From Aphrocallistes beatrix (lineage: Eukaryota > Porifera > Hexactinellida > Sceptrulophora > Aphrocallistidae): a stretch of 64,000 bases of DNA. Location: the NCBI GenBank assembly GCA_963281255.1, contig OY725496.1, positions 2,418,001 through 2,482,000 of the forward strand. The letters are read 5' to 3'. Made by a program: the position numbers and the translations under genes. The notes below the pieces were generated by a model. It ran no database searches, was not told where the DNA came from, and was given only the letters and a program-made list of their open reading frames with translations. Of this stretch, positions 3,265 to 64,000 are shown in pieces. Positions within the stretch are counted from its first letter, which is position 1, and each line of letters begins with the position of its first letter.

Positions 3265-3959
3265 TCCTTACTAGTATTAAAACTCGATTACTGTTTGTTT
3301 GTTTGTATATATATATATATACAGTGGAATTCACTTATTAGCAACTCGAGTTTTGCTCACAAAATGGTTGCTAATACGCGAAGTTGCGGGAACAGCATTA
3401 ATACAAAATCTTCACCTGGGACCTGAAAATTGGTTGCTAATAGAGCAATATTGCTAATAAGGGATAGTTGTTAATAAGCAAATTCCACTGTATCTCCGTA
3501 ACGAATTGATTGAAGAAACTGCCTGGCGCAGAAAGCTGATATTTGGCATGCAAGAGTCTTTTGGCTATGGCTCCAATAAGTTCTGAGTTCAGACGAAAAT
3601 GTCGACTCATCATGGAATTATGACGTCATTGTCACCTTTTATATAATCAGAAATTTCAGTTTTTCGACTATAACTCAGTTATTTTAGGTGATAGAAGGCT
3701 GACATTTTAATAGAATGTGTATATTAATATACTTCACATTGATGCAACTATCATCAAAAATGATGACTCATCACTGCTATGACGTCATGATTACGCATCA
3801 AAATTCTAAAAAATGGCAAATTTGGTGATTTTTCGTGCGATATCGATTATAACAGTAGCAGAAGCGTATTTAGGGATGCGACCCCAGGGGCCCACAGGGC
3901 GCTCCAGCGGACACAAAGTGTCCACCAGCCGTGCAGCGCATACAAGCGAAGCGCACTTG
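3265..3959 (+). mobile_element. Family A Helitron-like copy with MITE inside
   Basis: A full-length copy. It starts TCCTTACTAGTATTAAAACT after an A and ends with the GC-rich tail GCGAAGCGCACTTG before a T. The tail holds a GGACACAAAGTGTCC hairpin close to the end. A 169-bp MITE sits in its TA-rich leader (3322-3490). No protein is encoded, so it is a non-autonomous element. Confidence 0.7.
3322..3490. mobile_element. 169-bp TA-flanked MITE, second copy
   Basis: Ends CAGTGGAATTCACTTATTAG and, from the right, CAGTGGAATTTGCTTATTAA; TA at 3320-3321 and 3491-3492. Same family as 2566-2743, reversed. It is inserted in the (TA)n run of the surrounding family A copy. Confidence 0.85.
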
Positions 3960-4339
3960 TATTAAATAATAAATAAATCTAAACATCTTTAGGACGTACA
4001 TTCTAACACGAAACTTTACAATTTTAGATTCAATATTTTGGATCGTGCCTTTTATTAACGGAAAATCGAGATGATTTTGTTATATTTATATATCTACTAA
4101 AGTTCGTAATTTTTCTTTTACTTCCAGATGCAATGACCAGATCACATATTTTGTGAATTTGATTTGGTGAATTTTTGACACAAAATCGGGTTCAAATGTT
4201 ACAAATTCAGAATAACAGAATCTTTCTGCTTCTTCTATACTCTGTGAAATTTTGACTATCATTCTTTTTTTAGTACGGCCCAAAATTTTCTATAGGATTT
4301 ATATCCATACCATTTGGAGGGCATTATATGCATCTAACT
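3960..4339. other. No recognised gene
   Basis: AT-rich intergenic sequence. A 65-codon minus-strand open frame (4086-4283) has no recognisable motif and is probably chance. Confidence 0.4.
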
Positions 4340-4885
4340 CAGTATGTATCATTATAAGAAATCGAAAGCTTCGAATAAGGGTCTTAGTAACTGACACAAT
4401 CATATTACCCCCTTGTGAAATTTCAAAATATCACTTCCCTCTTCAATGGCGTAGAGAGGATCTTCTATTTGTGGGGCCTAGCAGCTAGCTGGGGATCTGG
4501 GGGGCGCTGTAAGCCTCTAGATGGGATCCAGAACTTTACATTTGTTTTATAATTTTCCCAGAATCTTCTAATTTTGTTTTCTAGAAATATATAATAACTC
4601 CAAAGACAGCCCCTCTCATAGGCGTGATTAGGTTCTTATGATCACTGGGTGACCATATACCTGCAGGGTGGGTATGCTCTATGATTTTGCATTATACTAA
4701 ATTGGTCAATAATGACTCCTGAGCGAGTGAACCAAACCAATAAGGAAATCTAGGGTATAGGCCCCATCAATTTCTAAAATTTTAGTAACAATTACAGATT
4801 TTACGGTAAATAACAAGTGAAATAATTATGTATAAGTGCAGGTTATAGACTAATAGCGTTGGATACTGAACAAATTCCTTTTTTA
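4340..4885 (+). repeat. Unclassified dispersed repeat C, copy 1
   Basis: Shares a long collinear match with the minus strand of about 20275-20735. Common landmarks are GGGGCCTAGCAGCTAGC (4472-4488), GACAGCCCCTCTCATAGGCG, ATCACTGGGTGACCATA, and a tail with CTAATAGCGTTGGATA. No terminal repeats, tail or protein were recognised, so the class is unknown. Confidence 0.65.
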
Positions 4886-4984
4886 CATTGGTCACATTTT
4901 GTAAAGATCTACGCAATTTTAGTCTTACTCAATTTGGCAAATAATTTTTCTACAAATCTCCGAAATTCCCCCACCTCTGGTTAA

Positions 4985-7970
4985 GGATACCGCCCTCGAA
5001 AAACAATATGATTTGGATTACAGCTTACGATGAAAGTAGAGCTATAAGAGATGTTAAGGTGGGCAGGTATCTGCGTAAAGAAATACTTGGATATTCCTAA
5101 CCGTTTTTGAATCTTATTTCTAGTTTTTGAAGGACAGTGTTTTTTCGTTTATCGCTAGCACATCTTAATGGTAGAAATCAGGCCACTCAATAAAATTTTT
5201 AGGACATACCAAGGAAACAAATGCTTCCAAAATCGAATCATATATAGTCAATCATATTTGCCACTTCATAGGACCAAAACAAAGTTAAAATGACAAAAAT
5301 TGTAAATTTTATAGGTATCCGAAAAAAAGGGCCAAAAAGGGTGAAAAACGTCTGTTTTATCGGGAAATCAGGAATAAAATCACCGAGTTATAAGATATCA
5401 AAAATAAAGTGGTCCTACGTTCATCGCCTAATGATATGGAACAATTCTTGATATTTTCAAACCTCTATCTCAAACCAATTTTGACTTATAATTCAGTAAA
5501 GACGGTCAATTTTAAAATTTTAAAGTCCCGAGATATAGAAATTTTAATTTTAGATGCTAAGGTTGGCCTTTCCTATAATAGCTAACTTTTGCAACTTTCA
5601 ACCGATTCATTTAATTTTTTCAGGGCAGATTTGAATCGCAGAGTTATCTACAAAACTGCATTAATAATCGATATAATTCAACAGATAAAATTTTTTTAAA
5701 ATAAATGGTTAATTTACAAGGAAGAAATAGGACACAATATGCTGACAACCCTTTAGAAACTTTCCAAATTCGTTCATAACTCGATGATTTAACGAATGAA
5801 CAGACAGACTTTTGAAATTTTGAAAATTGTTAAAAATTCACACCAAAACACCCGAGGAATTATATTTTTAGCAATTTTGTCACTATTTTTTTCATAATTC
5901 ACTTCTTACTCGTAATATCAAAAATCTGTCCGTTCATTATGTCATACTCTTCGAGATCTATCAAGAATCGTTGAGTTTTCGCTCCTATGTGTAATTTAGA
6001 AAAAGTTATCACCTTTATAATTGCTGAAAAAAAGTGTCAGAAATAGGATTTAGGAAATATTTATATATTTCCATTAATTTTAACTACTTTAGAATAATAA
6101 ATAACATGCAAATATCTTTATTCGACAACTTATAGCATTAATTAACTTCAAAATATGGTATATCAAAATTTTTAAAATCAAGTGTGAAAAACTGGTCATT
6201 GATGACTGGCCACCCAAAAATAACATCGGGTCCCACATTGAATTTCCAGCAATTTGATATATATATTGACCATATTTGGAGAATTTTTGGTTGTCCGTGT
6301 CTAGAAACGGCAAGAAATTTTTTCACATTCCTGGCCGTTGCTAGGAACCCGTAGCCAAAAGTCTTCTCCTAATGTGTCCAATAAATATATCAAATTGCTG
6401 GAAATTTAGTGCTGAGCACGAATTTAGCATTAAAATGATGATCTGACATGGTTCAAAGAAGTTATGGATATGAGATATTTCGCTTCAAAAATGTTTTGGG
6501 CTTCACCAGGTGGTACAAATGGCTTTAAGTGGCGAAATATTAGCCTTGAAATTCTAAAATCGAAAATAATGTTTAGAACCACTTTAGGGATCTAAAAATG
6601 ATTAAACAGAACTTTTGGCAAATTTTAGATAAAAAACAAAATGCCTATAGGAAAGGCCAACCTTAAGAACAATGTGAAATGTGTTAATAAAAATGAATAA
6701 AAGCATTCACAGACATTTAATCTAGTTTATACTGCTGATTTAGGTATATTCGAACCAAATATTCACATAAAATAGCAAGAGTACACTGAAAATCTACAAA
6801 TTTCTTTGAGGCCCCTAACCCCGAATATTTTGAGATAATTGGGAATAATAATTCATATTCCTAGCACTACGAAGTATAATCTATCAGTTAGAATGAATAA
6901 AGAGCTTCCAAAAAGTATACTAGGAAGTTAAAGAGAAACTCTACGACTTTTAGTTTCCAAGTTAGGAATTCCGAAAATGCTACGTCATCATATGACAAAA
7001 ATCTAAAACATACATTCCATAGGATGTAGTCCTATTATTATCAATGAATCATATATTTACCCTCATAAAAAGTATATTAGGATGTGAGAACTAAGAATTT
7101 GAGCATATATCTACAGAGAGAGTGATATCTCTTTTTGGACCTTAAATGAGGGTTTGTGACCGAATCTGGGAGGTCCAAGGCCAGAACTTTCAAAATAATT
7201 ATCAAAAGTTCTTCAATTTTTCTGCACACATTATTAACATAATAGCCACATTTGGATACATATTAAATAATTAGATTCCCCATTTTCTAATATATTCTTA
7301 AGTTCCACATATAATTTGTATCACAACCAAATCAATGATAAGTCGAGAAATAGTTATTTTTTGACAAAGGATTGTTTGAGGAACCTATATATTTTCGCAT
7401 ATATCCTTTTATTTAAGAGTATAATATATTATATATCTTCAATAGTTTTTAAGATATGACATCGGCCTCTTTCGGGACCATAGAGATATTATGCCCGAAC
7501 TTTACCTACAGTAAGCGAAATATCACGAACAAATGGTCGGATCCGAACAAATTTTTTTTGAAACGATCTGAATTTTATTTCTGATCCAGTGATCGCTAAA
7601 TATCTGTAATCAAACAGGCGATTTCCCGAGCATTACATAAATGAACTCCCTTATAGAGCTATTTTGTTTGGATTTTATTTGGCCATTATTCTAAATCTTT
7701 GTGTTATAAATCTTGCAAAAACAATGTTAAGGTCCATATCATTAAAAAATTATCAAATAGGTTAAAAACTAATTGGTGAATGCGTCAAAAATTCCAATAA
7801 TTTTTCAATTCTTAGTAACGCTAAACTTTAGGGGGTTAACTCATAAAAATCAAAATAAATACCGTCCAACTAGTACTATCAGATGCTAGACCGCTCAGTA
7901 GTACAATGAAATTAACAAAAAGAAAATGTCAGTTTTTTACGCCAAGCAAAGTTTTTCGAGGGCGGTATCC
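4985..7970 (+). mobile_element. Family E element, TTAA-flanked
   Basis: Inverted ends GGATACCGCCCTCGAAAAA and, at the right, TTTTTCGAGGGCGGTATCC; TTAA at 4981-4984 and 7971-7974. It is 2986 bp long, of which 5561-6662 is an inserted family G element, so the element itself is about 1.9 kb like the copies at 11580-13518 and 36142-38028. No coding sequence survives or was recognised. TTAA duplication is known for piggyBac and Kolobok transposons. The GG ends do not look like typical piggyBac ends, so a Kolobok-like origin is possible; this is inference. Confidence 0.8.
5561..6662 (+). mobile_element. Family G element inside family E
   Basis: Ends GGTTGGCCTTTCCTATAATA and ATAGGAAAGGCCAACC, flanked by CTAA (5557-5560, a decayed TTAA) and TTAA (6663-6666). 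The uninterrupted target is seen in other E copies as GTTAAGAAGAATG (near 12170) and GTTAAGAACAATG (near 31570). A palindrome fills the interior at about 6225-6415: TTTCCAGCAATTTGATATAT pairs with its complement around TTGCTAGG. No protein. Confidence 0.8.
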
Positions 7971-7974
7971 TTAA

Positions 7975-8304: not shown

Positions 8305-8504
8305 TCTCTATCCAAAATAATCAAGTATGAGAGGTGAGCACCAAAGAGTTCTATACTAATTGGCAATATTAGCAATGATGAAGCTACAAAAATTAAGAAA
8401 AAGTTCGTAAAATTAAATCAAAAATACAAAATGAACAATTTATTGTCTATATTGTGTTTCATGTTCAACCAGCTGTCTTCTTGCATGATTGCAGTTTATA
8501 TTAA

Positions 8505-9521
8505 ACAAGCGGGCTTCGCTTGCTTGCGCTGCGCGGCTGGCGGACAATTTGTATCCGCCGGAGGCTCTTGGGGTCATACTCATTCATTAAATACGCCTGT
8601 CCTACTGTTCTAATCGATATCGCTCGAAAAAGCACCAAATTTGTCAATTTTAAAATTTCAATGCGTAATGATGACGTCATAACATAGTGATGAGTAATCA
8701 TCTTTGGATGAGAGTTTAATCATATGTGAGATGAATTAATATACGCATCATATTAAAATTTCAGGCTTCTTTCACCTAAAATGGCTGAGTTATGTTCGAA
8801 AAACTGAAATTTCAAATTGTAAAAAGGTGACAATGACGTCATAATCCATGATGTCTACATTTTGGTCTGAATTCAGAACTTAGTGTAGCCATAGCTAAAA
8901 GACTCCCACATGTCAAAATTAAGCTTTTTTTTGTGCCTGGCAGTTTCTTCAATCAATTCGTTATAGATATAAATACGTGTATATGTATCTGTAACGAATT
9001 GATTGAAGAAACTGCCAAGCACAGAAAGCTGATTTTTGGCATGTGGGGGTCTTTTGGCTATGGCTCTAGTAAGTTCTGAGTTCAGACCAGAATGTCTACT
9101 CATCATGGAATTATGACGTCATTGTCACCTTTTTTTATAACTAGAAATTTCAGTTTTTCAACTATAACTCAGCCTTTTTGGGTGTTAGAGGGCTGAGATT
9201 TTAATAGAATGTGTATATTAATATCTCTCACATATGATGCCACTATCATAACAAAATGATGACTCATCACTTTGTTATGACATCATCATTACGCATCAAA
9301 ATTTAACAAATTGACAAATTTGGTGATTTTTCGTGCGATATCGATTATATCAGTAGGACAGACGTATTTAGAGATGTGATCTTCCCTAATAATTAATCAA
9401 TGTGACCCCAGCCGCCCACACGGCGCCTCCGGCGGACACAGTGTTCGCCAGCCGCGCTGCGCAAGCAAGCGAAGCGCGCTTACACATATATCAACATTAA
9501 TCGAGTTCTAATAGTAAGGAT
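8505..9521 (-). mobile_element. Family A copy with a second A copy inside
   Basis: Read on the minus strand, a copy starts TCCTTACTATTAGAACTCG after A (9521) and ends CGAAGCCCGCTTG before T (8506). Its TA/TG-rich leader is split by a second copy in the opposite orientation (about 8985-9480), which has the GC-rich 3' hairpin but lacks its own 5' terminus. The result is a head-to-head pair with two GC-rich hairpins facing outwards. It lies just downstream of the ESCO exon, possibly in its first intron. Confidence 0.7.
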
Positions 9522-17028: not shown

Positions 17029-19905
17029 ATGGCCAAGAGAATTACCTTGACTAGTTTATGGAGTACAGAGCCTCTAACCAAGGATAATGAGAATAAGGAA
17101 AGCTCAAGCACACTAGAGAGAGAAATTCAGTTGACTGAGTCCCAACTACGAGTTGACCAAGCTGAAATGACCTCATCCAGTGATGACGAATGTGTGAACA
17201 TTCAAGCACTGTTACAAGATTCAACAACATCGAGTAGTGCAGAGCAGAGGTTGGAGAGTGGCATTATCCCCACAATTACAACTGAGGATTGTCAAGGTGA
17301 GATATGATATAGAAAACATTATTATATGCCTCTTTATATTTCAATAGTACTATATCACTGTAGATATTGCGCTGTACTTAACTGATGTCCCGAAGCAACC
17401 CTCGTATTAAATTCCCTACAACTAAGTTTGGAGAAAAGCTCCGTTCATTTAATCCAGATTGGTATATGACCCACAATTGGCATGAATATTCTGTTAACCG
17501 AGATGCAGCCTATTGCTTTCCTTGTCGGTGGTTTTCCAGTCGCTTGAATCGGTCAGATGCACCTTTCACGAAAATTGGTTTTAGGGACTGGAAACATGCT
17601 ACTGGTCAAAATGGAAGATTGATTGAGCACAGAAAGAGTATGGTACATGTAGAAGCTGTCCATACTTGGGAAGAATACAAGCTCAACCTTCAGCGTGGAA
17701 CAACAATAAATCAAAGTCTAGACAAAATTGGAATGAACGTGATAAAGGAAAATCGCCACTATATCAAAACCATTTCGGAGATCATCCTTCTATGCACAAG
17801 GCAAGATATAGCACTAAGGGGACATGATGAGACTGAAGAGTCTTTGAATCCTGGAAATTTTCGATCGTTACTGACTTTTATTAGTAATCATGATCAGATA
17901 GTGCGGATTCGTATCAAGGAAGGGCCACAGAATTCAAAGTATACTACACCTGAAATTCAAAACGAGCTATTGGGTGTAATGGGCGATGTGGTTTTGCAGA
18001 CTATATCTAATGAGGTCCAAAATCACTCTATAAGTATATTTGTAACAAGCGCGCTTCGCGCTTGCTTGTGCTGCGCGGCTGGCGGACACTTCGTGTCCGC
18101 CGGAGGCTCCCTTCGAGCGCCTGGAGTCACATTGGTTAATTATAAGGGAGATAACATCTCTAAATATGTCTGTTCTACTGTGCTAATCGATATCACTCGA
18201 AAAATCACCAAATTTGTCAATTTTAAAATTTTTGATGCGTATTGATGACGTCATAACAAAGTGATGAGTCATCATTTTTTGATGAAAGTCGCATCATATG
18301 TGAGGTATGTTAGTATACAGATTCTATTAAAATTTCAGCCTTCTATCTCCTATAATGGCTGAGTTATGCCCGAATAACTGTGTTGCTTAACTTTTTAAAA
18401 TGTGACAATGACGTCATAATTCCATGATGAGTCGACATTTTGCTCTGAACTCAGAACTTACTGGAGCCATAGCCAAAAGACTCCCACATGCCAAAAATCA
18501 GCCTTCTGCGCCCGGCAGTTTCTTCAATCAATTCGTTACAGATATATATATATATACAATCATCGAGTTTTAATAGTAAGGATGTGATTCAAAGCTGCAA
18601 CCTATTTCCCGAAAACTGTGTATGCCAGTGCTAGGACGGAGCATCTGTTATGAGCGGCAGGTGTTCAGGTGTCCAGGCGCGATTTAAAGCATCTGCTCCA
18701 ATGGCCTTATATATACATTGCTGTGCACATCGCTTGAACCTTGTTCTTGTCGACTCCATTAAGGGTGTACCCATAGCACAGGACTTTTTCTCGTTATTGG
18801 AAGCAGTGTATGTATTCATATCCTCTGGAAAGTTTAATTCCCTCTTCGAGAAAATTCAAGTGGAAAAAATGCCAGGAAAACAGCCACGTCGACTGAAACG
18901 CCTAATTGAAACACGTTGGGCATGTCGTTTTGAGGCGATTAAGACTTTCAAAGAGACTTTTGGAGCCCTGTTATAACTACTCTTGAGACCATTTCTGATG
19001 GTGTGCAGCGAGATCGAGCAATTGAGGCAAAAGGACTTCTTCTTCAGATATCTGAATACAAATTCGTGTTGTGCTTAGTGATGTTTAACCATCTTTTCAG
19101 TTTGACGAACGGTTTGTCAAAGTCACTTCAGGATCCTGACCTTGATTTTAGTGCTGCAATGTCATTAATTGATGCAACTATTGAAAGTCTTCAGACTTAC
19201 AGATCAGAGAAACAGTGGAAAGAAATTTGGAATGAAGCTCTGATGTTTGCAGATAATCACGATATCGAAATTAGCAGGTTTCCACGAAAAAGAAGGCACA
19301 AATTACCAGCTAAACTGTGTGATGCATTAGTCACTACCACTGTTGGACATTGAGAAGAGCTTACAACTGAGGATCAATACTGTGTTACAATTTATTATCG
19401 TGTACTTGATTGCATGATAGATGAACTGAACAAGCGTTTTAATAATGAATCAAAGTTGTGCATGAAAGGAATTTCAGCTTGCTCACCCAAGTCTAGGGAT
19501 TTCTTGCCTTTACCACGATCAAGCCTATGCTTGTAAATTACAAAATTTAAGAGGCAGATGTACAAATTGAGTTGATGCAGGCAAATAAAGTTCTGAGAAA
19601 TGAACACATGGAAGATATTTATGATGTTATTGACAAACTAAGACCATTAAAGGCAGCGTTTCCAGAGTTGTTACGATTACTGGACATAGCGTTAACAATT
19701 GCTGTTAGTAGTGCAGCTTGTGAACGTTCTTTTTCTTCTCTCAAATGAACGAAGACCATATCTGCGCTCAACCATGAGCCAATTACGGCTAAATAATCTA
19801 GCCAAGTTGTCTATAGAGAGCGATATTGCTGCTACTCTTCCATTGGAAGTAGTCGTGGATAGGTTTGCTGATCAACACAGAAATCGCAGGATATGCTTGT
19901 TGTGA
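17029..19905 (+). pseudogene. hAT transposase (ZMYM1-like), broken
   Basis: The transposase would cut and paste the surrounding hAT element. The N-terminal part (17029-17295, Ser/Glu-rich) ends at CAAGGTGAGA, a possible donor, with CTGTAG at 17358-17363 as acceptor. The TTF-type zinc finger follows (FNPDWYMTHNW, AYCFPCRWF, GFRDWKHATG; frame starting 17385). After IQNELLGVMGDVVLQTI (near 17955-18005) about 90 residues of the core are missing, replaced by a family A copy. The protein resumes with DGASVMSGRCSG near 18637-18670, CCAHRLNLV near 18720, then the C-terminal dimerisation motif SSAACERSFSSLK near 19709-19747 and RLNNLAKLSIES near 19785-19820. Breaks: stop near 17405, TAG before DGASVMSG, stops near 19500-19620, frameshift at about 19747. 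Non-functional. Confidence 0.9.
18046..18581 (-). mobile_element. Family A Helitron-like copy inside hAT transposase
   Basis: On the minus strand it starts TCCTTACTATTAAAACTCG after A and ends GCGAAGCGCGCTTG before T, with no target duplication. The (TA)n leader follows the 5' end, and the GGCGGACACGAAGTGTCCGCC hairpin lies about 35 bases from the 3' end. It interrupts the hAT transposase frame, so it is younger than that element. Confidence 0.8.
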
Positions 19906-32212: not shown

Positions 32213-32331
32213 TATATTGCTTGCTTGTGCTGCGCGGCTGGCTGACACTGCATCCGCCGGAGGCGCCCTTCGGAAGCCTGGAGACACATTGATTAATTAT
32301 AGGAGAGATAACATCTCTAAATACGTCTGTC
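32213..32331 (-). repeat. Family A 3' tail fragment
   Basis: Contains only the GC-rich tail (GCTTGTGCTGCGCGGCTGGC) and the following ACATTGATTAATTATAGGAG to GTCTGTCC of family A in reverse. It ends exactly at the foldback element start (32332). Confidence 0.75.
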
Positions 32332-34086: not shown

Positions 34087-35127
34087 ATATTAAAATGCTA
34101 GGATTTTTTTTTTAATGTGTTTGTCCGAATTGATTGAAGAATTGGGAAGTCATAAAGGTGTGAAAATTGGCATGTAGGTGTCAAATGATATGACTACGAT
34201 TAAGTTCTAAGATCTAAGCGAAATTTTAACATCTCTGCAAAAAAATGGAAAACAATTGTTCGCACCTTTTCTATACAAAATAAATGACTACACTATCACA
34301 ATAGAAACCATTGTACGACAATACAATAGATCGTCATTGTTATTAATACTTCAAAGCCACAACTTAAGTTTGATCTCTTAAATGTATTATAATGTATGGC
34401 AATAAAAAAGATTATGTGCATATTCACACCTTTATATACATATTTTCACACCATTTCATGAATTTTGAAAATAATGCTAGAGACTAGCTTCCAACGGTTG
34501 ACATGGGGTTTTCAGGGGTGTAGATTTCGAATATCATATTTTCAGATCTATATGATAAATTATTTGTTTACTTTTATTAACAATAGAGACATAAAGTAAA
34601 CAAATCTCAAAAATATGCTAGAAACTTGCTTTCAACGGTTGTCATGGGGTTTTCAGGGGTGTGGATTTCGAATATCATATTTTCAGATTTATGTGATAAA
34701 TTATTTGTTTACTTTTGTTTACACTAGATACATAAAGTAAACAAATCTCAAAAATATGCCAGAAACTTGCTTTAAACGGTTGACATGTGGTTTTCAGGGG
34801 TGTAGATTTCGAATATCATATTTTCGAGTATATTTGATGATCAATGTTTACTTTTGTTTACAATAGATACATAAAGTAAACACATTACAAAATAGGCTAG
34901 AGACTAGCTTCCAATGGTTGACATGGGGTTTTCAGGGTTGTAGATTTCGAATATCATATTTTCAGATCCATATGAGAAATTATTTGTCGACCATTGTTTA
35001 CAATAGTTATATAAAGGAAGAATTCCAAAATATGTTAGATTGAGTGACTCCAGGCGCCCGCAGGGCGACTCTGCGGACAAGCAGTGTCCGCAAGCCGCGC
35101 AGCGCAAACAAGCGAAGCGTGCTTGTA
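34087..35127 (+). mobile_element. Family B Helitron-like copy 1
   Basis: Related to family A at both ends: a decayed 5' end (TATTAAAATGCTAGGATTTT), the TTTGTCCGAATTGATTGAAG leader, and a GC-rich 3' tail GCGAAGCGTGCTTG before T, with the hairpin GCGGACAAGCAGTGTCCGC. The interior differs from A and holds four units of a roughly 140-bp tandem repeat (34476-35035). Confidence 0.7.
34476..35035 (-). repeat. 140-bp minisatellite in family B
   Basis: Four tandem units, each with CAACGGTTGACATGGGGTTT, GTAGATTTCGAATATCATAT and a GTTTACTTT...AAAGTAAAC inverted pair. Starts near 34476, 34617, 34757 and 34894. The same array in the same position occurs in the second B copy. Confidence 0.85.
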
Positions 35128-40560: not shown

Positions 40561-41029
40561 TCTTGAGACAATCAGCAGGTCTAAAGATATTCTATGACCT
40601 ATATTTATGTACATATTAATTTTGAATTATTTCAAAAGAATAAATAAACTCGAAATTACTCACGGTTGCATAGAGGATCTGATAAACATAGTCAAATGGT
40701 TTTGTATGAGGAAGTTGCATCTTTTTTCCGAAAGGGCTACTGCAGTCCATTGAACGAGGTGATTAATGATTTCCTCTCTCTAAGTGCAAGTAAATAATAT
40801 CGGGTGCATATACACAGAGGCGTAGCTTATACCTATGTCGCCCGGGGCGGATGTATTTCATGCCGCCCCTCAACACACATTTCTACCTCAACTCAAAGTG
40901 TATAAACTTAATTTGTGGTGTGTTTTGTGTGTTAATTTAAAATACTATTCATACTCGTATTAGCTGGAAAAAGCATGTTCAAATTCAAAATACCTTGGAA
41001 AATTGAGTTTACCAATATATATTTTACAA

Positions 41030-42087
41030 GCACGCTTTGCTTGCTTGCGCTGCGCGGCTTGCAGAGACTGCGTGTCCGCAGAGTCACCCTGCGGGTGCCT
41101 GGAGTTACTCAATCTAACATATTTTGGGATTTTTTTCCTTTATATAAATATTTTAAACAAAGGTCAACGAAAAATTTCTCATATGGATCCGAAAATATAT
41201 TATTCGAAATCTACAGCACTAAAAACCCCATGTCAACCGTTGGAAGCTAGTCTCTGGCCTATTTTTGTAATTTGTTTACTTTATGTATCTATTGTAAACA
41301 AAAGTAGACAAAAATTTATCATATCAATCTGAAAATATGATATTCGAAATCTACACCCCTAAAAAACCCATGTCAACCGTTGGAAGCTAGTTTCTAGCCT
41401 ATTTTTTAAATTTGTTTACTTTATGTATCTATTGTAAACAAAAGTAAACAAATAATTTATCATATCGATCTGAAAATATGATATTCGAAATCTACACCCC
41501 TAAAAAACCCATGTCAACCGTTGGAAGCTAGTTTCTAGCATATTTTTGAGATTTGTTTACTTTATGTATCTATTGTAAACAAAAGTCAACAAATAATTTA
41601 TCATATCGATCTGAAAATATGATATTCGAAATCTACACCCCTAAAAACCCCATGTCACCCGTTGGAAGCTAGTCTCTAGCATTATTTTCAAAATTAATCA
41701 AATGGTGTGAAAATATGTATATAAAGGTGTGAAAATATGCAGATAATCTTTTTTATTGCCAAATACTATAATACATTTAAGATATCAAACATAAGTTGTG
41801 GCTTTGAAATATTAATAACAATGACGATCTATTGTAGTGTCGTACAATGGTTTCTATTGTGATAGTGTAGTCATTTATTTTGTATAGAAAAGGTGCGAAA
41901 ATTTGTTTTTCTTTTTTTTTGCAGAGGTGTGAAAATTTCGCTTAGATTTTCGAACTTAATCCTAGATTCATCATTTGACACCTACATGCCAATTTTCGTA
42001 CCTCTATGACTTGCCAATTCTTCAATCAATTCGGACAAACAAACAAACAAACAAACAAACATACAAATCCTAGAGTTTTAATATATA
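41030..42087 (-). mobile_element. Family B Helitron-like copy 2
   Basis: On the minus strand it starts TCTTATATATTAAAACTCTA after A and ends GCAAAGCGTGCTTG before T, with no duplication. The leader has a (GTTT)n run at about 42037-42062. The 140-bp minisatellite occupies 41150-41690. Inserted in a hAT MITE, in opposite orientation to the B copy at 34087-35127. Confidence 0.8.
41150..41690 (+). repeat. 140-bp minisatellite in family B, copy 2
   Basis: About four units; TAAACAAAAGT starts at 41295, 41435 and 41576 give a 140-141 bp period. Each unit contains GATATTCGAAATCTACACCC and ATGTCAACCGTTGGAAGCTA. Confidence 0.85.
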
Positions 42088-42171
42088 AGATGAAACACAA
42101 GGTCAAGTGCCGCCCCTATTAAGCGCCGCCCGAGGCGGTCCGCCCCCCCTAGCTACGCCACTGCATATACA

Positions 42172-48967: not shown

Positions 48968-49510
48968 CAAGCGCGCTTCGCTTGCTTGCGCTACGCGGCT
49001 GGCGGACACTTTGTGTCAGCTGTGGGCTCCCTTCGGTCGCCTGAGGGTAACAATGGTTAATTATAAGGGAGATATCATCTTAAATATCTCCATCTTAGTT
49101 TTAAAATCGAAATAACTCGAAAAATCACCAGATTTATCAATTTTTTAAATTTTGATGAGTAATGATGACGTCATAACAGAGTTATGAGTAATCATTTTTT
49201 GATGATAGTTGCATCATATGTGAGACATATTAGTATACAGATTCTATTAAAATTTCAGGCTTCTATCGCCTATAATGGCTGAGTTATCCCCGAATAACTG
49301 TGTTGCTTAACTTTAAAAATGTGACAATGACGTCATAATTCCATGATGAGTCGACATTTTGTTCTGAGCTCAGAACTTACTGGAGCCATACCCAAAAAAC
49401 TCCCACATGCCAAAAATCAGCTTTCTGTTCCTGGCAGTTTCTTCAATCAATTCGTTACAGATATAGATATATAGTATACACAAACAATAATCGAGTTTTA
49501 ATAGTAAGGT
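48968..49510 (-). mobile_element. Family A copy, first unit of tandem dimer
   Basis: Complete, 3' tail at 48968 (complement of GCGAAGCGCGCTTG), 5' end at about 49510. It joins the next unit with no spacer: AATAGTAAGGT then CAAGCGCGC. Confidence 0.8.
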
Positions 49511-50549
49511 CAAGCGCGCTTCGCTTGCTTGCGCTGCGCGGCTGGCGGACACCTTGTGTCCGCCGGAGGATCCCTTCGGTCACCTGGGGTCACATTGGTT
49601 ATTTATAAGGGAGATAACATCTCTAAATACGTCTGTCCTACTGTTATAATCTATATCGCACGAAAAAGACCAAATTTATCAATTTTTAAAATTTTGCTGA
49701 GTAATGATGACGTCATAACAAAGTGATGAGTCATCATTTTTTGATGATAGTTGCATCATATGTGAGGTATGTTAGTATACATATTCTATTAAAATTTCAG
49801 CCTTCTATCTCCTATAATGGCTGAGCTATGCTCGAATAACTGTGTTGCTTAACTTTTAAAAATGTGACAATGACGTCATAATTCCATGATAAATCGACAT
49901 TTTGCTCTGAGCTCAGAACTTATTGGAGCCATAGCAAAAAAACTCCTACATGCCAAAAATCAGCTTTCTGGGACTGGCAGTTTCTTCAATCAATTCGTTA
50001 CAGATAGATATATACACTGCCCTACCAAAAGTATTCGTACACCTCAATATTTCCCATTAATATAGTACTAAAATGGCTATATTAAAGAATGATCATGCAG
50101 TTAAAATATAAGAGATATAGTATATTTGATTTCAGATTCGTATTCTACGCATTTGAATTACCTATTTTCGAAGTTTCAAATCAATTGCTAATTGCCAAGG
50201 TTAAAATTCCCGACCTGTGCCACCATGTACCACTTTTCTAGAGTCTCAACCACTGTAGCAGATGGTGATAGGTGACACAGGGTAGCACATGATGATAAAT
50301 TTCGGCATAGTTAAAACTTAATTGATTTGAAAACTCTAAAATAGGTAATTCAAATGCGTAGAATACGAATCTGAAATCAAATATACTGTATCTCGTCTAG
50401 TTTAACTGCATGACAGTTCAGTAATAGACGCATTTAGTACTATTTTAATGGGAAATATTGAGGTGTACGAATACTTTTGGTAGGGTAGTGTATATATATA
50501 CGTATATAAATAAATAAATATACATTAATCGAGTTTTAATAGTAAGGAT
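49511..50549 (-). mobile_element. Family A copy, second unit of dimer
   Basis: Complete apart from a 476-bp MITE in its TA-rich leader (50015-50490). The 5' end TCCTTACTATTAAAACTCG (minus strand, 50549) follows an A. The interrupted outer A copy continues at 50550. Confidence 0.8.
50015..50490. mobile_element. 476-bp Tc1-type MITE
   Basis: Terminal repeats of about 58 bp beginning CACTGCCCTACCAAAAGTAT and, from the right, CACTACCCTACCAAAAGTAT; TA at 50013-50014 and 50491-50492. No protein. Inserted in the microsatellite of a family A copy. Confidence 0.9.
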
Positions 50550-51102
50550 AACAGTAAGACATATGTACTTAGAGATGCTACCTTCCTTTTAGTCAGGTCA
50601 ATATGATGCATGACCCCCAAAAATGACAAGAAATTGTTTTATTGCATTTTTCCGTTGTATCATGTCTTAAGAGTAACATACTAAAGTTTACCGAATTCGG
50701 AATATCAGAAAGTGATTTGACACGACCCCTTCGTTGACCCTGGACAATAAATATCGCCGGTTTTGAAAACTAAGATACAACCTTTCAAATGTTTGGAATT
50801 CAGTTTAGGCAATTTGATATATATATTTGACTAAATTTTGAGTAAAAAATGTTTGGCTTCCCTATCAACAACCTGGAATGTAACAATTCCGATTTCCAAA
50901 TTTGGTGTAAACCATATCGAGTGGCCCCTTGTTTTTCTCGGCTATGCTTGCTGAGTACGAATTTCTTAATATAAAGAGTCTAAAGTTGGTTTTTAAATAT
51001 TATGGTTGGTGGTTTCATGTATTTTTAACGGTCAAGATAATTCATGTATTTTTAACGGTAAAGATACTCATACATTTTTGTTTTATCCCTTTCACTCCTA
51101 TC
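50550..51102 (+). other. Outer A copy remainder, then unassigned
   Basis: The first about 70 bp (TAACAGTAAGACATATGTAC to GCATGACCCCC) continue the interrupted A copy from 48967. The rest is unassigned AT-rich DNA; TTTCATGTATTTTTAACGGT is partly repeated near 51015-51060. Confidence 0.45.
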
Positions 51103-51103
51103 C

Positions 51104-51642
51104 TTACTATTAAAGTTTGTTTGTTTGTGTGTAAATATATATATATATATCTGTAACGAATTGATTGAAGAAACTGCCAGGCACAGAAGGCTGATTTTTG
51201 GCATGTGGGAGTCTTTTGGCTATGGCTCCACTAAGTTCTGAGCTCAGAGCAAAATGTCGACTCATCATGGAATTATGACGTCATTGTCACATTTTTAAAA
51301 TTTAAGCAACAGAGTTATTCGAGCATAACTCAGCCATTATAGGAGATAGAAGACTGAAATTTTAATAGAATATGTATACTAACATACCTCACATATAATG
51401 CAACTATCATCAAAAATGATGACTCATCACTTTGTTATGACGTCATCATTACGCATAAAAATTTCAAAATTGACAAATTTGGTGATTTTTCGAGTGATAT
51501 CGATTATCACAGTAGGACATACATATTTAGAGATGCTATCTCCCCTATAATTAACCAATGTGACCCCAGGCGACCGAAGGGAGCCTCCGATGGACACAAA
51601 GTGCCCGCCAGCCTCGCAGCGCGAGCAAGCGAAGCGGGCTTG
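51104..51642 (+). mobile_element. Family A Helitron-like copy, complete
   Basis: Starts TCCTTACTATTAAAG after A, has (GTTT)n and (TA)n in the leader, ends GCGAAGCGGGCTTG before T. The tail hairpin is imperfect (TGGACACAAAGTGCCC). No nested insertion, so a good reference for the 539-bp form. Confidence 0.85.
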
Positions 51643-53091: not shown

Positions 53092-55835
53092 CTAAACACA
53101 ATTTTCGGATAGATAATTAGTAATTTGAGGTAACACGAGGCACTCATGCTTGAAGCTTGAAAACAATTTGGAAAGTTTCACATTAAGTGGAAAGTTGTCG
53201 GTAGTTATGATATGAAAGAATATCCAGCATTTTTCAACATTTTTAATACAAGTGCGAATTAATATCAAATATTTTTTCAGCTGATACAGAAGCAAAAGGC
53301 AATAGACGGACAATACAAGACCATTTCTTACAAAGACTAGACACCATGATAGCGAATACAGTTTTGGTAGGATCATCGGGATCGGGATTAGAGCTAAACA
53401 TTTTGCCTCCTTTGTAAGAGATATCTGATTTGACATAATTTAATCCATTTGGATAATAACATGCTTCTGCTCAGGAGAAAACGATTGGGTAGCTTGCTTA
53501 AGAAATGAAAGAAAATCGTTTTCAAGTCCAAAGGACGAATACAATTTTTCTAAAGTATTGAAATGTGGGAGAGATAAAGAAGGCATGCTCTGAAGATACT
53601 TGTGGCAAGCAGGCGAATTCAGATGTGCTTTGAGGGCCATTATTTGCGTCAGTATGTTATATCTCATGTTTTTAGGTACAATGCTATTTTGAAGCTGACA
53701 TAGAATGAGGAGCCTAGAAACTTCGGGACAATCATGCAATTCGTCATCTGAAATGGAATCATGGATGTTATCAATAATGTGTTGTATATGGCTTTCTGCG
53801 GATGCAATACGAGACGCAATAGAATAATCGGTAACGGTATCCTTAGTGTGGATACTGCTATATAGTGGACTAGAAATTTCATCCAGAATAATGTTGTCGG
53901 GTTTCCCTCAGATAAAAATTGGGATGGGAAAATTTTCACCCTTACGATAGGCTTTTATGGATAAATCAAATTATACCAATAGGTAGACATCAACAAGAAT
54001 TCCACAATTTTCTAAATTAGGACGCATAAAAATTAAAGTACGCTCATCTGGGTACCAAAGTGACCAATTTTTGGAATAGATAGAGAGGGTGACTTAACTC
54101 GTAAATCCAGGAAGCTTTTAACAAAGAACCTTTCATTCTCATTTTCGGACCTCATACTGAGGGTTAATGCTTGATTGAACAGTTCATCATCCTTAGAGCC
54201 ATATTCGGCGATTTGAGCAAATTATTGGGGTCTGGGGGGCTCTGGACCCCCCCCCCCACTTTTTTTGGTTTTCATTTGTTCATTTATTTTGGGACTATCA
54301 AAATAGTGAAATAAATTACAGCTATTTCGAAAACATTTTCAGACTGAAACTGTTGTAGAACCACTCTGCGTTTAATTAATTAGTTTCCAATTTGTTTTGA
54401 ACAGTGTTTTTGGATTCACACTTTTCTGTATAATTTAGTCTCATTCAACTGAGGATTCAGAATCCGTATATTTGTAGTTTCAATCCTCATGTAACTTCGT
54501 TAGTTTGTCCATATTTGGAGAATTTGTTTCATCATAAGAGATTAACATAATTAATTGACTATCATTATGGTATATTAAGTAATATATTAGTTTATTAATG
54601 TATAATGGTACTGGAAATATAGCAAGGATCAAGATATGAAGTATTTTAACTCTATATCGAAGTTTTAAATATATTTTGTCTCACTTCATTTCGACTTATA
54701 AATTCCTTCAATAATTTCTTCATATTAAGATATTAAGAAGATCAAGTTCTTCTTTATCCTTCTATTAAAACTCGATTAATATTTGTATATATATATATAT
54801 ATATCTGTTACGAATTGATTGAAGAAACTGCCAGGCGCAGAAAGCTGATTTTTTGGCATGTAGGAGTCTTTTGGCTATGGCTCCAGTAAGTTCTGAGCTC
54901 AGAGCAAAATGTTGACTCATCATGGAATTATGACGTCATTGTCACATTTTTAAAAGTTAAGCAACACAGTTATTCGAGCATAACTCAGCCATTATAGGAG
55001 ATAGAAGGCTGAAATTTTATTAGAATCTGTAAACTAACACGCCTCACATATGATGCAACTATCATCAAAAAATGATGACTCATCACTTTGTTATGATGCC
55101 ATCATTATCATCAAAATTTTAAAAATTGACAAATTTGGTGTTTTTTCGAGTGATATCGATTTTAAAACTAAGATGGACCTATTTAGAGATGATATATCCC
55201 GTTTAATTAACCAATGTCACCTCCAGGCGACCGAAGGGAGCCTCCGGCGGACACAAAGTGTCCGCCAGCCACGCAGCGCAAGCAAGCGAAGCGCGCTTGT
55301 ATGTTGATAAAATAAGAAGCGATTAATTTTTTGAAACCATATAATAAATAATTATAGTGAACACCAATAATATAATAATAGTGTGCATTATTTAACATTA
55401 CTTCACTTTTCCTAAGTAGTTGGTATAGATAATAAATTTTGGGGAAAAAAATACTCGCCTCCCCCTTGCCCCCTCAGGATCGACGCCTATACTTAGAGTC
55501 ACGGGACAGACGACTGCGTTTGGTAGCGGAGTGTGAGGAATAATATGCTGGACACCCTGGCAGGATAGATGGCACCGTACCTTCTTTCAGGTTCTTTGCT
55601 TCGCGGAATTTCCCGATAACTCCTGTCTCCATTCGGTACTCTGCGGGTATATTCAACATCTTCATCTCTAAAGTGCTTCACGCAAACGTATACTACCTTG
55701 AGCTTATCAATATCATTCCTATGGAGAGCTCTGAGCCAAGCATGTCTAAGTTGATCTGATGTTTGTAGCAATTTGAATACGGGAATACGCTCGTCTTTAT
55801 CATAGTTACTTCTCAGTCAGGGGCAGAGCAATTGC
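53092..55835 (-). pseudogene. P-like THAP transposase, broken
   Basis: A minus-strand transposase of the P-element/THAP9 type. The THAP zinc finger lies at 55475-55835: CSAPD then stop where Cys is expected, IPVFKLLQTSDQLRHAWLRA, YVCVKHF and DVEYTRRVPNGDRSYREI, with a shift before TVPSILPGCPAYYSS. A family A copy (54756-55300) follows. At 53940-54210 the frame reads RSENENERFFVKSF and, in another frame, PDERTLIFMRPN. The core (53440-53870) has YNILTQIMALKAHL, SMPSLSLPHFNTLEKLYSSF and VIIQMD at the site of a catalytic Asp, then a stop in place of the usual Glu. NQISYKGGKMF and CKKWSCIVRLLPFASVSAEK follow at about 53280-53420. The end near 53092 is cut by the nested element 48304-53087. Confidence 0.7.
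54756..55300 (+). mobile_element. Family A Helitron-like copy in P-like gene
   Basis: Starts near 54758 with TCCTTCTATTAAAACTCG after A, ends GCGAAGCGCGCTTG before T (55300). The hairpin GGCGGACACAAAGTGTCCGC is perfect. It separates the THAP domain from the transposase core. Confidence 0.85.
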
Positions 55836-57960: not shown

Positions 57961-57962
57961 TA

Positions 57963-58312: not shown

Positions 58313-58316
58313 TTCA

Positions 58317-59323: not shown

Positions 59324-59328
59324 AAGTT

Positions 59329-59668
59329 CATAGATTTATATACCTCCCGAATCGATGCTGATAGGTTGTCAGGGGATTTACAATCTGGGTGAGGTGTAAA
59401 ACCTACTGATGGTTGCTGAGTGTGGTGTATGCAGGATGTGTCCATAATCATATACTACATACTATATAATGGCGCATTTACTGAGAAAAAATCAGCTATC
59501 AGTAGGCAAGAAATATAGCACCTAATTTTACCATTGAACGAGATGACATTATTAGTGCTTCAGTTCATAAGGTTCTGCAAGGGTGTGGCTCAAGATTACA
59601 TCGCCAAAGCAATGTAATTGAAGGCAAAAATTAAATGGTGTTCGAACGCCCTAACTCACTGCACCACC
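59329..59668 (-). mobile_element. tRNA-derived SINE, copy 4
   Basis: Reverse orientation and more diverged, with deletions in the tRNA-like head; GTGCAGTGAGTTAGGGCG (minus strand) remains. Confidence 0.75.
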
Positions 59669-59979
59669 CAAACAAATAATTTTAAACAGCTCCAAGCTTT
59701 ATTTGCGTTTATTTTCGTATAATGATATTCATTTCTTATGTTTCTTCGAGTCAATAAGAAATAGAGGCTGCATTATCGGTCTGTCGACCGACATTTTTTA
59801 ATTTAATTAAAAATATCATATCTATTTTGTAAAAAAATTCTAAAGTGGATTTTCAGAATGTTTATCATGAAACCAATAGGCTAAAATGGGGAATCGGAAT
59901 AAGACCAAAATTGAAGTAGGATAAGACTTGAATAGTGTTCAATTTGGTGTGAAAGTTGCATTTTTATTCGTGAGGGGGG

Positions 59980-60130
59980 TACTGTTTGGCATTTTAGGTC
60001 TTAATCCCACTTAGCAGTTTTGAGGCCCTATTTCTACTTCGCATGTTTTATGTCTTATTCCCATTTCCCAGGTTTTAGGTCTTATTCCTACTTCGCACGT
60101 TTTAGGTCCTACTTCAAATTAGGTCTTAAT
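59980..60130 (+). repeat. Degenerate 35-bp tandem repeat
   Basis: About four units of TTTTAGGTCTTATTCC-TACTTCGCA spacing. Inverted relatives (GGAATAAGACCAAAATTGAA, GTAGGATAAGAC) stand at 59890-59930. Between them lies unassigned sequence. Confidence 0.55.
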
Positions 60131-60576
60131 TCGGCGACTCGTTCAAATTTACTCTCTGATGGATTCTTGAGTTCGCCATAAATGTGTTATTACCGCATTG
60201 AACGGGAGGCCATATAAATTAGCTGTTTATATTATAATTAGAAGAAATCGGTAAATTAGTGTAAAATTGGAACAGGTTGATTTTTCCAATAACTAATAGA
60301 CGAAAGTGGACTTACAAATGTTGCAACCCTCCAAGTCATACAATATATACTCAAGGAATAAGAATTAAAGGAGGGGGATGGAAAAAATCCATATATTTAT
60401 ATGTGAGGGTCTGTTTATTTGGAGCACACAATAGGATGTGCAAAATTAGTCTCCACTTAAGGCATATTTAATACAGTAAATTGTTATTTCTATCTGAGAA
60501 ACAACGGTAAACTAGAAATAAGTCAATAGAATAAAAGAGAAATAAGCATATATAAACAAAATATAGGTTATTCATA
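60131..60576. other. 3' flank of UGP gene
   Basis: No repeats recognised. Probably includes the 3' untranslated region of the minus-strand UGP gene; a poly(A) signal candidate is listed separately. Confidence 0.4.
60414..60419 (-). promoter_or_regulatory. Possible poly(A) signal for UGP
   Basis: AATAAA on the minus strand, about 160 bases after the UGP stop codon. The distance is plausible, but AATAAA is common in AT-rich DNA, so this is weak. Confidence 0.3.
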
Positions 60577-62052
60577 CTAATGATCAAGAACTCTTAGATT
60601 TCCAGATATTACTTTATTTTCCAAAATACTACCCATTGGAATATCAATACGTTCGCCAGGATTTGCTATAATAATGACAGTTCCCTTAAGAATAACCTTT
60701 TTGCCAAATCTTATGTCCCCAGATACAGTGAGATGATCCAACTCTAACATTTCAGGAATGTCTTCAAATCTTTCTAAAAACTCCTTCAATTTACCAAAAT
60801 GATTTGAACCAAGTTTAACTAACGGAACTGAAGGGAAACTTCTCCGTGGATTCATAAAAATAAGACCAGTTGGTAATTCTAGACAATAAAGATCAGAAAG
60901 AATGGTCAAAAGATCTGAAGTAGTCTTTACTGGAAGGAAACGTAATCTTGGAACATTTAAACCAACAGCGCCTTCGAAACATTTAATCGCAGCTCCAATC
61001 GCATTTTCCAATTGAATTACCTTTGTACCATTTTCCAAAGTTTTAGAATTAACAATAGTCTCCATGTGCATCGAATTATTGTTCAAAATGCGCTTGATCG
61101 AAGATAATCGAATCCATAAGTTATTTGTGTTGAATATTTTGAATTTGTGTACAGATATAAATTCATCCACATGAGATTTTGGTACTTGAGCAAATTCTAG
61201 CAACATTATTTTATCATTATTATAAACAAGTGTTCCCCCTTTGATATCTGAACGTGTCTTATCAGTCACTTCCATTAAAAATTCGCAAGGTTTACTTGGT
61301 TGGTTTGTCAAATAATTAAGTATTTTCAAGTCAACTACCGCGCCTAAATTATCTATATTTGAGACAAAAACAAATTCCTTTCCTAGTTTAAGAAAATAAT
61401 CACACAAACCAGAATTTACAAATGATTTATAAAAATCTCCATGTCCTGGCGGATACCATGAAGAATCATTATCACAATTCGGGTCAGTAACAAAGGGTAA
61501 TAAAGTTTCTTTCTCAATTCTAGGAAATTTACTTTGACAAAATGTATAGAATAAAACCTGTCCTTTATATCTCTCTTCAATGCGCTTAATATCATCATCT
61601 GTGTTGAAGGAATTCATCAACACCAGAGGAACATTGCAGTTATAAGTTGAATTAATAAACTTGATTTGGCGGACTGAAATATCAAGGAATGTCATATCAT
61701 TTCTGACAGTAATCAAGCTTTTGGGACCTTGACAACCCATTGTTGTACCTAAACCACCATTTAATTTAACAACAACCAGTTTATCTAAAAGTTCTTTAGA
61801 TCTTTCAAAATCTATTGAAGGCAACTCGTCATAAAGAGGGAGTTGATTAGAAGGGAGAGGCTTTATTTTGAACCAATCTTCAGCAATAGGATGATCTTTT
61901 GAATGCATAAAATCTTTGAATAATTCCTGAAAATTTTGCAAATTTAACATAAGTGCATCACGACTTTTTTGACAAGCTAGTAACTCAAGTTTTTTGCAAT
62001 ATTGAAACAACCTTTTGATTGTATCAGAATCATCAGAAGGGAGTGAGCTCAT
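60577..62052 (-). CDS. UGP2: UTP-glucose-1-phosphate uridylyltransferase
   Basis: Makes UDP-glucose and pyrophosphate from UTP and glucose-1-phosphate, a cytosolic reaction feeding glycogen, chitin, glycoprotein and glycolipid synthesis. The 491-residue frame is complete and near the usual animal length of about 500. The nucleotide-binding loop LNGGLGTTMGCQGPKS is at residues 97-112, MNSFNT at 146-151, SWYPPGHGD at 198-206, the metal-binding SNIDNLGA at 231-238, KTRSDIKGG at 265-273 and RFLPVK at 371-376. The C-terminal beta-helix ends with ILENKVISGNLRVLDH, the family's conserved tail that mediates octamer contacts. Start: first ATG, 37 residues before the FQELF region, no upstream in-frame extension needed. 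It has no introns and no breaks, unlike everything around it. It may be a functional intronless gene or a recent retrocopy; no poly(A) tract was seen after the stop. The symbol denotes the animal orthologue group. Confidence 0.95.
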   Translation of the reverse strand: MSSLPSDDSDTIKRLFQYCKKLELLACQKSRDALMLNLQNFQELFKDFMHSKDHPIAEDWFKIKPLPSNQLPLYDELPSIDFERSKELLDKLVVVKLNGGLGTTMGCQGPKSLITVRNDMTFLDISVRQIKFINSTYNCNVPLVLMNSFNTDDDIKRIEERYKGQVLFYTFCQSKFPRIEKETLLPFVTDPNCDNDSSWYPPGHGDFYKSFVNSGLCDYFLKLGKEFVFVSNIDNLGAVVDLKILNYLTNQPSKPCEFLMEVTDKTRSDIKGGTLVYNNDKIMLLEFAQVPKSHVDEFISVHKFKIFNTNNLWIRLSSIKRILNNNSMHMETIVNSKTLENGTKVIQLENAIGAAIKCFEGAVGLNVPRLRFLPVKTTSDLLTILSDLYCLELPTGLIFMNPRRSFPSVPLVKLGSNHFGKLKEFLERFEDIPEMLELDHLTVSGDIRFGKKVILKGTVIIIANPGERIDIPMGSILENKVISGNLRVLDH

Positions 62053-62307
62053 GAGTTACTTGCAAAATCTAATAATTTCGAAAAATACATGTGCTAAAAA
62101 TTAAATATACTAGGATTCAAATATTAGTCAGTTATAACAAATAATATGAGTTACTTTCTATAAAATTTGAATACAATCTATTCACTAATGATTGAGGTAG
62201 GCATAGACCTCTGTATATATATGGCCTGAAATTTAAAACTCAAAAATGGAGCGAGTATGTGGTAGAAGATGGAATATTAAAGTACGATTAACGAACTTTT
62301 TATTTAA
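62053..62307 (-). other. UGP upstream region
   Basis: About 250 bp between the UGP start and a family A copy, so any proximal promoter must lie here. A foldback-like start (CATAGACCTCTGTATATATA, near 62205) with GTGGTAGAAGATGGAATATT shows that a family F terminal fragment sits about 150 bp upstream of the ATG. No convincing TATA box or initiator could be singled out. Confidence 0.4.
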
Positions 62308-62310
62308 TAC

Positions 62311-62735
62311 AAGCGCGCTTCGCGTACTTGCGCTGCAGCCGCGGCGTGCGGGCACTTTGTGTCTGCCAGAGGGGCCCTTTGGGCGCAAGGGCTCACATTG
62401 ATAAATTATAAGGGAGATAACAACTCTAAATAAGTCTGTATTACTGTTAAATTCGATATCACTCGAAAAATCACAAAAAATGTCAAATTTTCTTTACGTA
62501 ATGATGACGTCATAACAGGTGATGAGTCATCATTTTAGATGATAGTTGCATCATATGTGAGGTATATTAATATACACATTCTATTAAAATTTCAGCCTTC
62601 TATCACCTAAAATGACTGAGTTATGGTCGAAAAACTGAAATTTCTAATTATAAAAAAGGTGACAATGACCTCACAATTACATGATGAGTCGACATTTTCG
62701 TATGAGATCAGAACTGCCAAAAATCAGCTTTCTCT
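62311..62735 (-). repeat. Family A copy, 3' part
   Basis: GC-rich tail at 62311 (diverged, with GCAGCCGCGGCGTGCGGGCA), then the A body to about 62735 (AAAAATCAGCTTTCTCTGCC). The 5' leader is missing, replaced by MITE sequence. Confidence 0.7.
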
Positions 62736-62736
62736 G

Positions 62737-63165
62737 CCTGCACACTTCATTATTTTACGTGCATTTAATACTAAAATGGGTCTATTAATGAATATTAAAC
62801 TCCGAAACGGTAAGTGATACAACTAATTGGGTTTCAAATTTGAAATCTCTTCGCATTCGAATTAGTTATTGTAGGATATTTCTTATCAATTACTGCCACC
62901 TTGTGCTACATATGTCCCTTTTTATCACTATACATGATGGTGATGTACTACCACTTGTGCCACATGTTGATAATTTTATTCATTGGGTTGAGCCATTTGT
63001 TAGAAATCTTCAACTATAACTAATTCGAATGTGAAGATTTCAAATCTTAAATCAGACTCTTAACAGCTCTTAGAGTTTGAATACTTTTCACTTCACGAAA
63101 ATATCAATTTAGTACTATTTGTATGGGGAAGAATATAGTGCACAAATACTTTTGTCGGTTAGTGT
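62737..63165. repeat. Tc1-type MITE, left end lost
   Basis: Right end CACTAACCGACAAAAGTATT (complement, 63165) and the internal inverted pair TTTAATACTAAAATGGGTCT / AATTTAGTACTATT. The left terminal repeat is missing. Same subtype as 2150-2240. Confidence 0.65.
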
Positions 63166-63171
63166 ATACAA

Positions 63172-63695
63172 GCGCGCTTCGCTTGCTTGCGCTGCGCAGC
63201 TGGCGGACACTTCGTGTCCGCCGGAGGCTCCCTTCGATCGCCTGGGGTGACATTGGTTAATTATAAGGGAGATATAAACTCCAAATATGTCCATCTTAGT
63301 TTTAAAATCGATATCACTCGAAAAATCACCAAATTTGTCAATTATAAAATTTTTGATGCGTAATGATAACGTCATAACAGAGTGATGAGTCATCATTTTT
63401 TGATGATAGTTGCGCCATATGTGAGATGTATAAATATACATAATCTATTAAAATTTCAGCCTTCTATCTCCTATAATGGCTGAGTTATGCCCGAATAACT
63501 GTGTTGCTTAACTTTTAAAAATGTGACAATGACGTCATAATTCCATGATAAGTCGACATTTTGCTCTGATCTCAGAGATACTGGAGCCATAGCCAAAAGA
63601 CTCCCACATGCCAAAAATCAGCCTTCTGCGCCCGGCAGTTTCTTCAATCAATTCGTTACAGATATATATACAATAATCGAGTTTAATAGTAAGGA
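63172..63695 (-). mobile_element. Family A Helitron-like copy
   Basis: 3' tail at 63172 (CAAGCGCGCTTCGC on plus) after A, with a perfect GGCGGACACTTCGTGTCCGC hairpin. The 5' end TCCTTACTATTAAACTCG (minus) at 63695 lies next to the (TA)n of another A copy, into which it probably inserted. Confidence 0.8.
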
Positions 63696-64000
63696 TATAT
63701 ATATCTGTAACGAATTGATTGAAGAAACTGCCAGGCACAGAAAGCTGATTTTTGGCATAGGGGAGTCTTTTGGATATGACTCCACTAAGTTCTGACATCA
63801 GACGAAAATGTTGACTTATCATGGAATTATGACGTCATTGTCACCATTTTTATAAATAGAAATTTCAGTTTTTCTGCCATAACTCAGCCATTTTAAGTGA
63901 TGGCTGAAATTTAATAGAATGTGTATATAAATATTCCTCACATCTGATATAATTATCATAAAAAAAGATGACTTATCACTGTTATAACATCATCATTACG
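63696..64000 (+). repeat. Family A copy, cut by window end
   Basis: Leader ATATATATCTGTAACGAATT and A body in plus orientation, running off the window. Its own 5' terminus is separated from it by the reverse A copy 63172-63695. Confidence 0.7.

Follow-up and report, generated by a model that had tools for sequence, protein, structure and literature searches.

Helitrons with a CTTG 3′ terminus, and their very probable RepHel partners, in the glass sponge Aphrocallistes beatrix

The window, which is the whole stretch of 64,000 nucleotides of A. beatrix DNA that was analysed, contains copies of two repeat families, A and B. They are itemized below, with a caret marking the boundary between an element and its flanking sequence.

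3265..3959, + strand: family A copy, A^TCC...ACTTG^T
8506..8963, − strand: family A copy with the 5′ part missing, 3′ end CTTG^T at 8506
8984..9481, + strand: family A copy, 3′ end without the last G
18046..18582, − strand: full family A copy of 537 bp, the reference for the analysis, A^TCC...GCTTG^T
18081..18101, − strand: hairpin with a 9-bp stem, GGCGGACAC/GTGTCCGCC, upstream of the 3′ end
34468..35125, + strand: 3′ part of family B, 141-bp tandem repeats followed by GTGCTTG^T at 35125
41027..42090, − strand: full family B copy of 1,064 bp, A^TCTTATATATTAAAACTC...GTGCTTG^T, with 141-bp tandem repeats inside
48968..49509, − strand: family A copy, downstream in a head-to-tail pair, CTTG^T at 48968
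49511..50548, − strand: family A copy, upstream in the head-to-tail pair, CTTG then ACCTTAC
51101..51642, + strand: full family A copy, A^TCC...GGGCTTG^T
54757..55299, + strand: full family A copy, A^TCC...GCGCTTG^T
62310..62715, − strand: family A copy, 5′ truncated, 3′ end CTTG^T
63169..63695, − strand: full family A copy with an empty-site counterpart in L063

More partial pieces of family A lie at 2564-3146, 9482-9520, 32219 and 63700-64000. They include a 5′ end at 9520 (− strand) and a 3′ end at 32219 (− strand) without its last bases, and the piece at 63700-64000 is a copy running past the end of the window. The copy at 49511..50548 probably comprises the 5′ and 3′ parts of one element, with ~490 bp of non-family-A sequence in between. 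A short CAGTGGAATT...AATTCCACTG element with inverted ends is nested in the 3265..3959 copy (at about 3322-3490) and is absent from the other family A copies of the window that were compared. The reverse nesting occurs in L002, where a family A copy lies inside a CAGTGGAATT...AATTCCACTG element, and L064 also holds such an element. Among the Pfam matches in the window are a RING finger, an ESCO-type zinc finger, UDP-glucose pyrophosphorylase and a DUF4371 frame; MULE and DDE_3 transposases are matched below threshold. An Rfam match to MIR395 (63626-63740, − strand; 56.5 bits against a threshold of 56) covers the 5′ parts, in inverted orientation, of two family A copies, and is therefore probably spurious.

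Within the window both families start with TC, finish with CTTG and are inserted between a host A and a host T. In all the sequences examined, 40 of 43 distinct family A-type 5′ ends are preceded by A; in one of the three others the start had been set wrongly, and the true start of that copy (54757) does follow A. At the opposite terminus T follows 65 of 68 distinct 3′ ends, a set that takes in some of the 20 sampled stretches described below. Exceptions in the window are the 49511 end (− strand), where CTTG is followed by ACCTTAC in the head-to-tail pair, and the copy ending at 9481 (+ strand), which terminates CTT^A. The window has about 33% A and 32% T, and compared with this composition the frequency of A before and T after the elements is far above chance. 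Position −2 is T at 25 of the 43 5′ ends and position +2 is A at 43 of the 68 3′ ends, which suggests a TA^TA-like insertion preference.

The first 60 bases of seven elements (three of family A, one of family B, and the long elements T71, T74 and T73 described below) were compared with the last 100 for inverted repeats, scored as exact matches. The longest are of 4-7 bases, and none is above those of shuffled sequences. An earlier note on this DNA had described both families as having TC starts, CTTG ends, A and T flanks and no terminal inverted repeats, and all of this is borne out by the re-read ends, the seven elements and the genome-wide counts that follow. The ends it located are real, but its coordinates are off by 0-2 bases; some are those of flanking bases, and 41029/42088 and 51103 fall inside the elements. 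Its statement that most copies start with TCCTTACTATTAAAACTCG was too strong, because the exact 19-mer is found at only two sites in the window (18564 and 50530, both on the − strand). Family A copies elsewhere in the window differ from it by one base or indel.

The genome (100.5 Mb in 28 contigs) was searched by exact pattern. The 21-mer of the family A 3′ end has 3,674 exact matches, of which 2,837 continue with CRCTTG, followed by T in 2,788 and by another base in 49. The CTRR terminus of classical Helitrons is not the family A end, since CRCTRR follows the 21-mer at 12 places genome-wide (11 CTAG and one CTGA) against the 2,837 with CRCTTG. These 12 are among 837 21-mers without a following CRCTTG. 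From the 837, 20 stretches were sampled, all on contig C1, and their end types assigned by reading the sequence by hand; 14 have a TTG^T end, nine of these being CTTG, and one has CTAG^T. The family A 5′ 24-mer has 2,187 exact matches, with TC ahead of it in 2,043 and lacking in 144. The 5′ end reads A^TCC in 1,930 of the 2,043, with a base other than A in the remaining 113. In the 100 of these that were listed the preceding base is G in 69, T in 20 and C in 11, and 45 are exact CTTG^TCC junctions by hand count. There are 91 exact head-to-tail junctions of this kind genome-wide. Reversed-pattern controls for the family A ends and junctions gave 0 matches. For family B, 107 5′ ends were found using a pattern that excluded G before the end, and A precedes 97 of the 100 listed. 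The boundaries hold in the genome-wide look at the ends that the earlier note had proposed.

Bat and maize Helitrons, too, are known to form head-to-tail junctions with a G/T join, according to the parts of the Helitron literature drawn upon throughout (PMC4778049, PMC5148889, PMC4289320, PMC2267711, PMC4067079, PMC5876387, PMC6544945 and PMC3789558). The maize cases are attributed there to consecutive insertions, so that CTTG^TCC junctions alone are no proof of rolling-circle concatemers.

Among the candidates listed there are two clear empty sites and a third within a TA repeat, and target duplication is seen at none of the three, in keeping with the earlier note. In T50 (contig C1, − strand) a family A copy lies inside a Rep gene as TTACA^TCC...GCTTG^TTTACATG, and T73 is uninterrupted at the same site (TTACATTTACATG). 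The empty-site sequence of T73 is TTACATTTACA, compared with TTACA^TCC...CTTG^TTTACA in T50, and other Rep loci are likewise uninterrupted there. In L002 the sequence GTAATA^TTGCTA is split by a family A copy, and both the window (3357-3493) and L064 have CAATATTGCTA intact at this position. The third site is the empty counterpart of the 63169..63695 copy in L063, and is less exact because it sits within the TA repeat. Candidates e8, e12, e14 and e25 were set aside because they are flanked by family copies, TA repeats or mispaired ends. Since the element begins with T and is followed by T, single empty sites are compatible with a shift of one base; C...CTTGT inserted between T and T fits them equally well.

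Folding suggests that the 3′ region of the family copies is structured. The hairpin with the 9-bp stem lies 33 nt ahead of the 3′ end, a spacing that departs from the 16-20-nt palindrome which classical Helitrons have some 11 nt from theirs. In its perfect form GGCGGACAC/GTGTCCGCC it occurs at four sites in the window (18081, 49544, 55246 and 63202). Six copies were folded as single-stranded DNA, giving folding energies with z from −1.9 to −5.2; 0, 0, 0, 3, 0 and 8 of 200 shuffles fold as well. Upstream of the 9-bp stem an 8-bp hairpin, AGGCGCCC/GGGCGCCT, is predicted in two of the six (L067 and L078) and in part in the others. A last helix, bulged or perfect, would cover part or all of CTTG in five of the six, and is weaker than the 9-bp stem. 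From 69 candidate 3′ ends 57 were aligned, the 12 others, removed by eye, being partial or rearranged or else no family ends; the second hairpin is nevertheless present in two of the 12 (L043 and L044:515-606). The 57 aligned ends contain four double-change pairs compared with 2.1 expected, and 71 of 500 shuffles score as high. The RNAalifold consensus keeps nine pairs, with a covariation term of 0.12. With covariation no better than in shuffles, the case for the hairpins is one of energy and not of evolutionary evidence. A lack of covariation would be expected of neutrally decaying copies.

The PF14214 profile matches 106 places in the genome, fragments included. T71 (C11:2035676-2045624, + strand, 9,949 bp) and T74 (C2:4499201-4508787, − strand, 9,587 bp) align in three long pieces covering the whole element, 96-98% alike, and not beyond its ends. 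Both have the termini A^TCTTATATATTAAAACTC...GCGCACTTG^T, with final bases CACTTG^T, and match family B at 87-89% over the initial 167 bp. They are independent insertions with the family B 5′ end. The Rep/helicase frame of T74 is open over 1,970 residues, and that of T71 is broken in two (1,531 and 452 residues). T73 (C2:3994039-4003543, + strand, 9,505 bp) starts A^TCCTTACTATTAAAACTCG, and its first 511 bp are family A at 91%, minus the last 16 bases of that family. It then continues with a Rep/helicase frame of 1,959 residues and ends CGCGCTTG^T. The Rep/helicase with the same ends that the earlier note expected in this genome is therefore found, with a family B 5′ end in T71 and T74 and with family A in T73. 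T50 has a 5′ arrangement like that of T73, with ~500 bp of the family A 5′ region ahead of RepHel; a 3′ end of its own was not found in the fetched stretch.

Immediately ahead of their intact 3′ ends, T71, T74 and T73 each retain a decayed one (L078, L076 and L073/L075). The failed terminator may have been bypassed in these elements and replaced by a family A end. The two RepHel proteins, family A-type and family B-type, are 58% identical, and 30 Rep loci, sorted by identity, form two lineages that correspond to families A and B; four of the 30 (L030, L032, L033 and L035) are divergent, and L033 is hard to assign. Six peptide patterns found no RepHel relatives in viral contigs.

All three RepHel frames scanned against Pfam contain Helitron_like_N, PIF1 and Pif1_2B. 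In L074 the first two match with E values of 2e-58 and 1e-78, alongside Pif1_2B and OTU. No endonuclease domain is matched at E 0.01 in the three frames, to which the scan was confined. The best relative of solved structure is bat Helraiser (PDB 7lcc; phmmer 1,049 bits, E 0), aligned over residues 214-1697. The HUH motif GLPHAH and the tyrosines of KYLYKY are conserved between the two. The latter correspond to Helraiser Y727, named in the literature, and to one four residues further on, the second position being taken from reading the alignment. A candidate autonomous partner with an HUH Rep and a PIF1-type helicase, as in classical Helitrons, is present. The OTU cysteine protease-like match at the C-terminus of these Helraiser-like frames passes the cut-off in L074 and L072 and falls short of it in L073. 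Near its N-terminus L073 also matches the 23-residue STPR repeats of Pfam.

Judged from sequence alone, families A and B are very probably non-autonomous Helitrons that are mobilised by two related RepHel Helitrons, with termini A^TC...CTTG^T; the earlier note had likewise read them as non-autonomous Helitrons. The HUH two-tyrosine nuclease would nick at the 5′ TC, and the PIF1-type helicase would help to displace one strand. Copying would stop, with a cut, at CTTG past the GC-rich hairpin region, and the strand would then be inserted, without duplication, where an A meets a T in an AT-rich target. If a 3′ end were bypassed, copying would continue to the next terminator.

Short copies with microsatellites, tandem repeats and a 3′ stem-loop also characterize DINE-1/HINE and Helentrons in published descriptions. 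The families could thus be Helentron-, Helitron2- or DINE-like, that is elements with asymmetric terminal inverted repeats, a T^T target and an endonuclease-bearing partner; the same sources give subterminal inverted repeats for DINE-1/HINE and Helentrons. The one-base shift at the empty sites would allow T^T, and the OTU match, over the cut-off in two of the three frames, is a domain often combined with endonuclease in Helentrons in those accounts. We consider this reading highly improbable. Genome-wide, TC follows A and CTTG precedes T, and a shifted T^T target would still follow A. No terminal or subterminal inverted repeat exceeds shuffles in the seven elements, no endonuclease is matched in the three frames, and the long alignment with Helraiser speaks against a Helentron. 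That the families are repeats of Helitron fragments amplified in some other way, for example by segmental or tandem duplication, has a negligible chance of being correct, for although head-to-tail junctions are present and several copies sit in TA repeats, there are thousands of copies with identical boundaries and A/T flanking bases, the flanks differ among the copies read, and the empty sites argue against such a route.

As Helitrons, the families resemble Helraiser/Helibat of bats in the 5′-TC, the A^T target, the RepHel architecture and, as a potential hairpin, the 3′ palindrome, and their RepHel aligns with that of Helraiser through the HUH and tyrosine motifs. Helraiser differs in its published CTAG end, which a 19-bp palindrome precedes at 11 nt; here the end is CTTG with the strong hairpin at 33 nt. 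The extra potential hairpins, the C-terminal OTU match and the 23-residue repeats are further differences. A CTTG terminus is not new. It has been reported for HELPO2, a Helitron of the fungus Pleurotus ostreatus, as an exception to the CTRR rule. Published work describes for HELPO2 the same A-T insertion, a subterminal hairpin, and Rep and helicase in one ORF, a likeness at the level of these described features.

By most of the features tested these are classical Helitrons; they deviate in breaking the CTRR rule and in the spacing of the hairpin. A classical Helitron Rep/helicase is encoded by the full-length elements that share these ends, and the families are accordingly of an ordinary type, unusual in a 3′ end that has been reported before. 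The earlier note had taken CTTG as the mark of a distinct lineage. This is not supported in a comparison whose sole outside Helitron protein is Helraiser, because the Rep/helicase aligns with that of CTAG-ending Helraiser over most of its length, and because of the CTTG reported in HELPO2. More speculatively, and with the balance of likelihood against it, a Helitron lineage may have shifted its 3′ recognition from CTRR to CTTG, with a string of hairpins acting as terminator, the last reaching into the terminus. Decay of terminators would then have led RepHel to read on to a second, family A terminator, so that terminator swapping would drive the evolution of the family.

A family whose 3′ 21-mer has 3,674 exact matches in 100.5 Mb of genome would escape search programs built on the CTRR rule. 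It also provides a natural example in which to ask what bases and hairpins a Helitron terminator really requires. The 141-bp tandem repeats of the family B copies extend over 34468-35016 and 41122-41695 of the window; tandem repeats within Helitron-type elements are already known.
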